From Thiobacillus denitrificans DSM 12475 (GTDB taxonomy: Bacteria > Pseudomonadota > Gammaproteobacteria > Burkholderiales > Thiobacillaceae): 64,000 nt of DNA. Under the pieces are notes generated by a model that searched no databases, had not been told where the DNA came from, and saw nothing but the letters and a program-made list of their open reading frames with translations. Location of the stretch: contig NZ_AQWL01000004.1 of assembly GCF_000376425.1 (NCBI RefSeq), forward strand, positions 266,251 through 330,250, in the 5' to 3' direction. Made by a program: the position numbers and the translations under genes. Below are positions 14,989 through 49,882 of this stretch, one piece after another; position 1 is the first letter of the stretch, and each line of letters begins with the position of its first letter.

Positions 14989-16418
<1,430 letters not shown>

Positions 16419-16419
<1 letters not shown>

Positions 16420-16682
16420 GGCGTGCTAATGCTCATTTCACGCCTGTGCCGAGTTCAATTTGGGTACAGTCCGCGAAGCGTGACGCGCCGCAGTGCGATC
16501 ACTGCAAGCGGCTCGCGACAAAGGAATGCGCCCAAATTGAATTCGTCCCTCCGGGTTTCCGCGAGAAAGCGCGTCTGCGGCGTTGCGCCGCTTGGCAAGG
16601 GATGGCCCTTGCCTGCGCGGCACGCCTTGCATCCATCGCTTTCTCGCGGAAACGCAGACGCGAAATGAGCATCAGCACGCCC
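16419..16682. repeat. 264-bp nested inverted-repeat element with cloverleaf topology
   Basis: Order of arms is A, B, B', C, C', A'. A (16419-16448) and A' (16653-16682) pair at 26 of 30. B (16450-16464) and B' (16531-16545) pair at 14 of 15 around CAATTTGGG. C (16556-16571) and C' (16637-16652) pair at 16 of 16. Inside B is the hairpin GCAGTG/CACTGC (16490-16505); inside C is GGCAAGGG/CCCTTGCC (16594-16613). A sequence at 16570-16579 can also pair perfectly with 16653-16662, giving an alternative fold. The element begins on the last base of the upstream stop codon and ends 4 bases before the GTG of mshM. No transposase is present. Confidence 0.88.
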
Positions 16683-16686
16683 TCCC

Positions 16687-18015
16687 GTGTATTTTGACTA
16701 TTTCGGCCTGAAAGAAGCGCCCTTCCGCATCACGCCGAATACCGAATACTGGTACGCCGGCGGCCAGCGCGGGGAAATGCTCGCCGCCTTGCTCTACGCC
16801 ATCGGTCAGGGCGAGGGCATCATCAAGGTGGTGGGCGAAGTCGGCAGCGGCAAGACCATGCTGTGCCGCAAGCTGGCAGCGCAGTTGCCCGACAGCGTCG
16901 ACAGCGTTTATCTCGGCAACCCTACGCTTGCGCCGGACGACATGCTGGCGGCGATCCTGGCCGATCTCGGAATCGAAATCCCCGAAGACGGCCGCCAGGC
17001 CCGTCTGGCGCAGTTGAATGCCGCGCTGCTGGCACGTCATGCGGCGGGGCGCCGCGTGGTGGTCTTCGTCGAAGAAGCGCAAGGCATCGCGCTCGACAAC
17101 CTGGAGTTCCTGCGGCTGCTGACCAATCTGGAAACCGCCACCGACAAGCTGCTGCAGATCGTGCTGTTCGGTCAGCCCGAACTCGATGTGCAACTGGCCG
17201 ATCCGCGCATCCGCCAGCTGAAGGACCGCATCACCCTCAGCCTGAACCTGTCTCCGCTGACCGAGCCCGAGGTCGCCGAATATCTGCGGGCACGGCTCGC
17301 AGTGGCCGGTTATCGCGGTCCCGACCTGTTTTCATCGGCCCTGATCGCGCAGTTGACGCGCCTTTCCGGCGGCCTGTCGCGCCGCATCAACGTGCTGGCC
17401 GACAAGTCGCTGCTCGCCGCCTATGCCGGTCAAACCCACACGCTCACCGCGACGCATCTGGACGCCGCGGCAGGCGACGCCGAAATCCAGCCACCTACCC
17501 AAATCGCGCGTTCTGTACGCCTGCCACGCTGGGCGTGGCTGAGCGCCGGCCTGGCCGCCGGGCTTGGCCTGCTTGCGTTCGTCGCCTGGCAGATGCGCGC
17601 GCCTGCTGTCCAGCCACCTGCCGCGTCGCCCCAGTTAGCTGTAACGTCTCGACTGCCCCCTCCCGTTACGGTCAGCCGCGTAACCGAACTGGCACGGCAA
17701 ACCCAGCGCTGGCTTGCCACCGCCGCGCCCGGCATTCATGTGATCCAGGTCGCCTCGGCTAAAGAAGCGGCGCAGGCAGCCGTATTATTGGGGGATTTGA
17801 ACGCCGTTACGCTGCAACCGGTTAGGGTGCTGCATGGCATGAGTCAGGGTGCGCCTGCCTGGATGATCCTGGCGGGCGAATTCCCTGACCGGGACGCAGC
17901 CATGGCGGTCATGCGCACCTTGTCCGCCACGTCAACTGGCGTTCATGCCCTTCAGGGTGCGCCGTTTCTGCGCACGGTTGGCAAAATGCGCAGCGTGGTC
18001 TTGCCAACGGGATAA
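16687..18015 (+). CDS. mshM: MshM/ExeA-like AAA ATPase of the pilus operon
   Basis: 442 aa. Begins MYFDYFGLKEAPF, the standard N-terminus of ExeA/MshM ATPases. Walker A GEVGSGKT is at 50-57 and Walker B VVVFVEEAQ near 125. One membrane helix spans about 282-301, and the periplasmic tail (345-442) resembles a SPOR-like peptidoglycan-binding domain. In type II secretion ExeA helps seat the secretin; the same role is likely for MshL here. The start is GTG with no visible ribosome site, since the inverted-repeat element ends 4 bases upstream. Confidence 0.85.
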   Translation: MYFDYFGLKEAPFRITPNTEYWYAGGQRGEMLAALLYAIGQGEGIIKVVGEVGSGKTMLCRKLAAQLPDSVDSVYLGNPTLAPDDMLAAILADLGIEIPEDGRQARLAQLNAALLARHAAGRRVVVFVEEAQGIALDNLEFLRLLTNLETATDKLLQIVLFGQPELDVQLADPRIRQLKDRITLSLNLSPLTEPEVAEYLRARLAVAGYRGPDLFSSALIAQLTRLSGGLSRRINVLADKSLLAAYAGQTHTLTATHLDAAAGDAEIQPPTQIARSVRLPRWAWLSAGLAAGLGLLAFVAWQMRAPAVQPPAASPQLAVTSRLPPPVTVSRVTELARQTQRWLATAAPGIHVIQVASAKEAAQAAVLLGDLNAVTLQPVRVLHGMSQGAPAWMILAGEFPDRDAAMAVMRTLSATSTGVHALQGAPFLRTVGKMRSVVLPTG

Positions 18016-49781: not shown

Positions 49782-49882
49782 AGTGGCGAGCCTTACCCCG
49801 GCACTGGCATCGACCGCTGGGGCTGCTTCCTTCCGGACCTGACCCGATTCACGACCTAGCCATGCGGGGAGACCCGCCACCC
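49782..49882 (-). ncRNA. ffs: SRP RNA (4.5S, small bacterial type)
   Basis: On the minus strand the conserved apical loop GGTCAGGTCCGGAAGGAAGC is present. The ends GGTGGCG and CGCCACTC pair to close the hairpin, giving about 100 nt. It binds Ffh to target membrane proteins. Location beside dnaX is common in Betaproteobacteria. End positions are accurate to a few bases. Confidence 0.95.

Follow-up and report, generated by a model that had tools for sequence, protein, structure and literature searches.

The described repeats that come closest to the element reported here are NEMIS/Correia, RUP and ERIC/IRU, which resemble it in being small, in having terminal inverted repeats, in lying between genes and in giving folded transcripts. 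TA is the target of NEMIS/Correia and ERIC/IRU. For an ordinary MITE, the terminal sequence is expected to be kept rather than the interior. Related shapes are found in the parvovirus T-shaped terminal repeat, which has the topology A-B-B'-C-C'-A', and in the integron attC site, where the fold is conserved and the stem sequence is free. Delihas 2007 (PMC2229807) describes RUP as inserting at TA, and the Caulobacter CIR, of about 110 bp, as a pair of hairpin arms with a linker between them. The REP/REPIN-RAYT and TIRYT/TIRtron systems are presented in Di Nocera 2013 (PMC3733652) as palindromic repeats, often in inverted pairs, found downstream of genes and recognized by Y1 enzymes in a structure-dependent manner.

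The element was found in a stretch of 64,000 nucleotides of Thiobacillus denitrificans DSM 12475 DNA, hereafter the window. Judged by their descriptions, NEMIS/Correia, RUP and ERIC/IRU are set apart from it by size, since they measure about 105 to 155 bp and the element about 265 to 280 bp. Unlike them, the element forms a three-way junction with two arms, and across families its fold is kept and its terminal sequence is not. With CIR, as portrayed in that source, it shares the two arms and differs by the stem that its two ends form. With the REP/RAYT and TIRYT repeats it would have in common that it is read through its structure. The likeness to the parvovirus repeat and to attC is one of analogy only, given that the element is interspersed in the chromosome without a replication gene or a cassette context. 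The features of the locus are as follows.

14989..16419, + strand: response regulator with a sigma-54 activation domain and a Fis-type HTH, upstream gene
16417..16419, + strand: TAG stop of this sigma-54-type response regulator; its G is base 1 of the repeat as counted here
16419..16682 (264 bp): whole element, arms A-B-B'-C-C'-A', T-shaped fold
16419..16447, no strand: arm A, left terminal inverted repeat, about 29 nt
16448..16547, no strand: arm B, hairpin of about 100 nt
16548..16554, no strand: linker mini-hairpin separating arms B and C, consensus CC..GG
16555..16653, no strand: arm C, hairpin module of about 100 nt, positions from model R1 (118.8 bits)
16654..16682, no strand: arm A', right terminal inverted repeat
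16687..18015, + strand: AAA_22 and SPOR protein (mshM-like), downstream gene, with its GTG start 4 nt past the element

An inverted-repeat search paired 16418-16446 with 16655-16683 (A with A', 29 nt, 90%) and likewise recovered the inverted repeats of B and C. The fold predicted for 16410-16690 as RNA has a single closing stem A, arms B and C, and inner hairpins, with an energy of −162.8 kcal/mol compared with −107.9 ± 5.5 for shuffled sequences. Since this corresponds to a z of −9.9 and none of 200 shuffles was equally stable, the structure of the window element is far beyond chance. Together, the two analyses confirm the coordinates, arms and three-way topology that an earlier note had read from the sequence, and the T-shaped terminal repeat to which it was likened is right as a description. 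The element does start on the last base of the stop codon and end 4 bases ahead of the GTG at 16687, and the A of the TAG, which precedes the first G of the repeat, is probably element sequence too. It is short and non-coding, with terminal inverted repeats, as MITEs are. The earlier note had also proposed a switch through an alternative 10-bp pairing of 16570-16579 with 16653-16662. This pairing is perfect in the window copy, but as a conserved feature the switch was rejected, given that all 10/10 Watson-Crick pairs persist in just 5 of the 64 copies aligned, with no clear covariation.

The mshM-like ATPase (16687-18015) scored 199.8 bits against TIGR03015, the XrtA/PEP-CTERM ATPase model, which is under the cut-off of 324.5, and the gene that follows it just clears the MshL cut-off. 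No promoter-like site was found, and the one terminator-like site equals chance expectation. Elsewhere in the window, 49782-49878 on the minus strand encodes an ordinary bacterial small SRP RNA (76.3 bits).

The junction between the regulator and mshM was surveyed in the Thiobacillus group, where 49 loci were obtained and 43 had both ends readable. Thirty-two of the readable junctions were empty (3-12 nt), four had 26-34 nt, three had other inserts (142-169 nt) and four had the element. In most empty relatives the regulator ends in TAA or TGA, and the junction is also empty in the closest relative by regulator (L065, 96.3%). At L099, 28 nt of the left element end remain, a match that none of 300 shuffles equalled, and of the candidate scars this is the only convincing one. 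Candidate scars at L092, L097 and L086 and in three hemH pieces were unconvincing, with 178, 174, 288, 74, 24 and 103 of 300 shuffles as good. A different inverted repeat of 165-169 nt, starting TTCCTCACC.CAGAGACAC, fills the junction in L064 and L091, and an unrelated 142-nt insert occupies it in L089; the gap therefore takes several kinds of insert.

The genome of the window (G000) holds one full copy, a partial copy with A, B and A' present and arm C absent (L002, region of G000:C3:426367), and a second match to the arm-C model. Across the genus, 34 of 57 genomes matched at E ≤ 1e-20, and many of them did so in several places; 7 candidates per genome were scored, so the copy numbers are a minimum. 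With 60 further regions fetched, 82 loci were tested, and 75 of them gave copies without N whose match begins no more than 18 bases from one end and stops no more than 18 from the other. The element is present at 2 of 30 hemH loci and at 1 of 30 topA loci, the remainder being without it in the stretch read. Plasmid matches were partial, with two records for the window element (34% and 21% of the query) and one for a gamma copy (18%).

A tree of 64 copies groups the mshM copies of the window, G048, G016 and G037 into one clade (0.98). The mshM-junction copy of G054 (L051) lies outside this clade, its nearest match (90.9%) being a copy at another site. Because it falls in another copy lineage, it points to a second, separate insertion at the same TA and stop codon, with conversion between copies as a possible alternative source of its placement. 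Six same-site groups are sister copies, and the same-site pairs L139/L146 and L116/L121 are also non-sister, with weak support. The dispersed copies and empty sites are those of a MITE, and together with the two element lineages at one TA they support the non-autonomous mobile element that the earlier note had put forward. That note had named the absence of copies and of covariation as the outcome that would speak against it; copies, empty sites and covariation were all sought, and this outcome is contradicted by the copies described above and the covariation described below. The family is dispersed and, on an evolutionary scale, mobile.

Several copies are of interest for their condition. L034 and L036 (in G038 and G036) share one insertion site and are oppositely oriented, through either inversion in place or two insertions. 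L156 (G048:C15) looks rearranged by eye, with arm C directly after the left end, followed by a reverse-complement arm B. At G020:C71:3396-3441, two element ends lie 4 nt apart within 46 bp, like the scar that a lost interior would leave, and a similar pair of 49 bp is present at G401:C22:19982-20030. Contigs C6, C10 and C15 of G032 each start about 150 nt within an element end, which suggests that assemblies break at the element and that drafts under-count it.

The 75 copies gave 57 site clusters (two of them, L034 and L036, being one site), whose neighbours were identified with a simple codon-usage gene caller. The flanking genes are oriented ++ in 26 clusters, −− in 20, convergent in 6, divergent in 4 and unknown in 1, so that 46 of 57 are co-directional. 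The excess is modest, 81% against 64% in a small null limited to this window, where of 136 intergenic TA 87 are co-directional, 28 divergent and 23 in stop codons. The element provides the last base of the TAG stop of a neighbour in 27 of the 57 clusters. Both flanks read TA (TA/TA) in 40 of the 75 copies, and identical dinucleotides were seen in none of the other 35. The inner A...T is kept better than the outer T...A (134/150 versus 109/150, p 3.5e-4), and for this reason A...T is possibly part of the element, with no duplication. Either the TA is duplicated on insertion, or an element ending in A...T enters T^A without duplication. The site preference is for T^A flanks, mostly between co-directional genes.

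This placement in co-directional gaps, together with the strong conserved fold, is also what would be seen with a domesticated structured operon RNA, an mRNA processing or stability element or a leader that selection on the transcript maintains. However, presence and absence vary among close relatives, and the element occurs in both orientations; the bias expected of a leader is unclear at 26 versus 20. The mshM-junction copies of G000 and G048 (L060) share 98.1% identity, more than the 92.5% of the regulator and the 82.7% of mshM, but the coding sequence of L060 that adjoins the junction is 91-96% identical to that of the window, so that the conservation of the element is close to that of the coding sequence right beside it. 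Mismatches give a divided answer. Among the 64 copies, G.T is in excess in the middle and tip of arm B (25:6) and in the stem of arm C (23:8), with column types at 5:5 and 9:5, a possible sign of selection on a single RNA strand. On pairs common to both strands, in contrast, G.T and A.C stand at 90 versus 70 (40 versus 36 column types), and gamma arm-C copies lean the opposite way, with G.T:A.C of 13:17 in the outer stem and 0:14 in the tip. A first count of G.T 298 versus A.C 86, which looked like a one-strand RNA signal, was dropped because the pairs predicted on the + strand included columns where G.T is usual. Moreover, an Rfam 15 covariance-model search gave nothing at the element and two weak matches elsewhere in the flanks. 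We consider a domesticated RNA improbable. The structured leader RNA and the translation control of mshM suggested in the earlier note are likewise unsupported as the reason for the element: most relatives lack it at mshM, its copies occur in either orientation among many gene pairs that are unrelated, and there is no clear overall one-strand mismatch bias.

The range of the family was explored with R1, a covariance model of arm C built from 41 sequences. R1 matched 115 of 399 genomes in the order (29%, E ≤ 1e-3), 79 of 369 in the class (21%, E ≤ 1e-4) and 26 of 299 in the phylum (E ≤ 1e-6), in overlapping samples with at most 10-13 candidates scored per genome and with rough E-values. Class and phylum are taken to be Gammaproteobacteria and Pseudomonadota (GTDB), and the beta and gamma labels of copies are assigned likewise. 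R1 also matched arm B at 18 of 29 loci (E ≤ 0.004), on the opposite strand from C, for example at L270 (50.9 bits), L291 (50.3), L165 (50.1) and L293 (45.4). On this basis, arm B appears to be the C module copied in inverted orientation. The other 11 of the 29 loci gave no match in arm B, the window copy among them, where B would have diverged past the reach of the model. An element that is quasi-palindromic over its full length would fit the absence of a clear orientation preference.

Conservation of the fold was assessed on two alignments. The first, A1, comprises 64 copies; the other 11 of the 75 were omitted for site repeats or differences in length or ends (L036, L038, L056, L118, L119, L137, L141, L147, L149, L150 and L152). 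RNAalifold gave 90 pairs for A1, 62 of them with compensatory changes. Its cells are paired in 96.8% of cases, compared with 89.5% in shuffled and 33.6-44.3% in slid controls, and 387 cells are compensatory, compared with 88.9 and 33-48. The second, A3, holds 77 matches from 71 loci, five of which are opposite-strand B arms and one a second C arm. All 17 of 17 outer-stem pairs in A3 changed on both sides, and the covariation score was 0.681 versus 0.159 shuffled and 0.088-0.133 slid, in an alignment whose fitting to the model is a bias in the model's favour.

The same architecture extends to more distant copies. Of 28 relatives that were folded, 22 show by eye a closing stem with both arms, often with unrelated stem sequence (9 of 12, the exceptions being L156, L166 and L002, and 13 of 16, the exceptions being L269, L275 and L281), and A stems of unrelated sequence surround the same architecture. 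Among 29 order loci, an A stem encloses 266-276 bp in 19 and 285-383 bp in 4, and is absent in 6 (L180, L186, L187, L189, L195 and L197). Among 26 class loci, the length is 265-280 bp in 16 and otherwise 165-342 bp in 8, with no A stem in 2 (L276 and L281). Around GTTGC and GCGCCTTG, beta and gamma copies alike largely retain the inner-loop words. The fold is conserved by compensatory change while much of the stem sequence stays free.

Covariation of this kind could also be a by-product of palindrome self-correction, in which template switching between arms restores pairing with no selection for the fold. Indeed, both arms of one copy match even where copies differ. Blanket correction should, however, erase mismatches, and mismatches in the A stem persist: position pair 24/250 is A.C in 36 of 64 copies and 27/247 is C.A in 25 of 64, with others partly paired. 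The retention of inner-loop words from beta to gamma also goes against self-correction, which we regard as very improbable.

A mobilizing enzyme was sought through shared ends and through candidate genes. Among 19 genomes, searched with one end type per genome and 2-3 mismatches, no coding partner of IS length with matching ends was found. The longest convergent pair of ends was 388 bp for one end type (11 genomes) and 270 bp for another (8 genomes, one without any match); several lone ends are present, one of them 2.1 kb from a copy. DDE_Tnp_1, present once in the genome of the window, was rejected as a partner, being absent from 15 of 20 genus genomes, the copy-rich G032 among these. A link to Y1 transposases was also rejected. 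In this the element differs from REP/RAYT, in which the Y1 gene is flanked by the repeat: Y1 proteins occur in 15 of 20 carriers versus 12 of 18 genomes without a match, and none of the 11 Y1 loci scanned, a subset of the Y1 genes, has the element within about 1.5 kb of flank (11 of 12 loci; 7 carrier, 4 non-carrier). No element lies near the DDE genes at the 7 loci scanned of 12 fetched, and the Y1 and DDE scans together returned a single chance match of 13.9 bits.

These searches bear on the possibility of an ordinary MITE, whose terminal repeats would be read by a TA-target DDE transposase, with the terminal types reflecting different IS partners and the interior hitch-hiking. Its size, its terminal inverted repeats and its TA/TA flanks in 40 of 75 copies agree with this, as do several genomes with many copies of one terminal type (one type per search). 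Yet what is kept is the interior fold and the loop words and not the terminal sequence, the opposite of the expectation for MITEs; convergent ends reach no further than the 388 and 270 bp given above, and DDE_Tnp_1, one DDE family, is missing from 15 of the 20 genus genomes covered. An ordinary MITE is thus unlikely, though far from negligible. We file the element as MITE-like in kind, with no IS-length partner in 19 genomes and flanks that allow duplication or none.

We consider it probable, with substantial room for doubt, that the element represents a widespread family of mobile, non-autonomous DNA, recognized by its hairpins and inserted mainly at T^A, where it often makes the TAG stop of its neighbour. 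Members are commonly 265-280 bp and consist of stem A, arm B, a tiny linker hairpin, arm C and stem A', with B often an inverted C. A trans-acting enzyme, encoded by the host or by an IS, would move the element, reading extruded hairpins, whose inner loops are conserved, in preference to a fixed terminal sequence; covariation is the basis on which this recognition of folded DNA is proposed. Insertion at a stop codon would preserve the upstream reading frame and often the ribosome site of the next gene as well, and such insertions would therefore survive. At mshM, the element would add a cloverleaf to the mRNA, and because the stem closes, the regulator stop and the mshM start would be adjacent at its base; here it is probably a tolerated passenger. 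More tentatively, the family may possibly stand for a phylum-wide class of mobile DNA defined by its fold: a T-shaped single-strand or cruciform substrate of two inverted hairpin modules, a structure-reading enzyme, a preference for T^A and stop codons, and invasion of operons without breakage of genes.

No description fitting the element was found in the open-licence literature, most subscription papers being outside its coverage. RepRanger 2025 (PMC12306157) yielded no mention of a comparable element, and passages of a 2024 MITE review (PMC10969869) nothing like it. The family thus appears to be so far undescribed: with matches in 29% of the order genomes and 21% of the class genomes that were sampled, it has no Rfam model, and neither a name nor a mobilizer was found for it. 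What this family conserves is its fold rather than its ends. Should the element be moved by a structure-reading enzyme, this would be another case of hairpin-driven repeat mobilization alongside REP/RAYT, and insertion at stop codons would account for the harmless entry of such repeats into operons.
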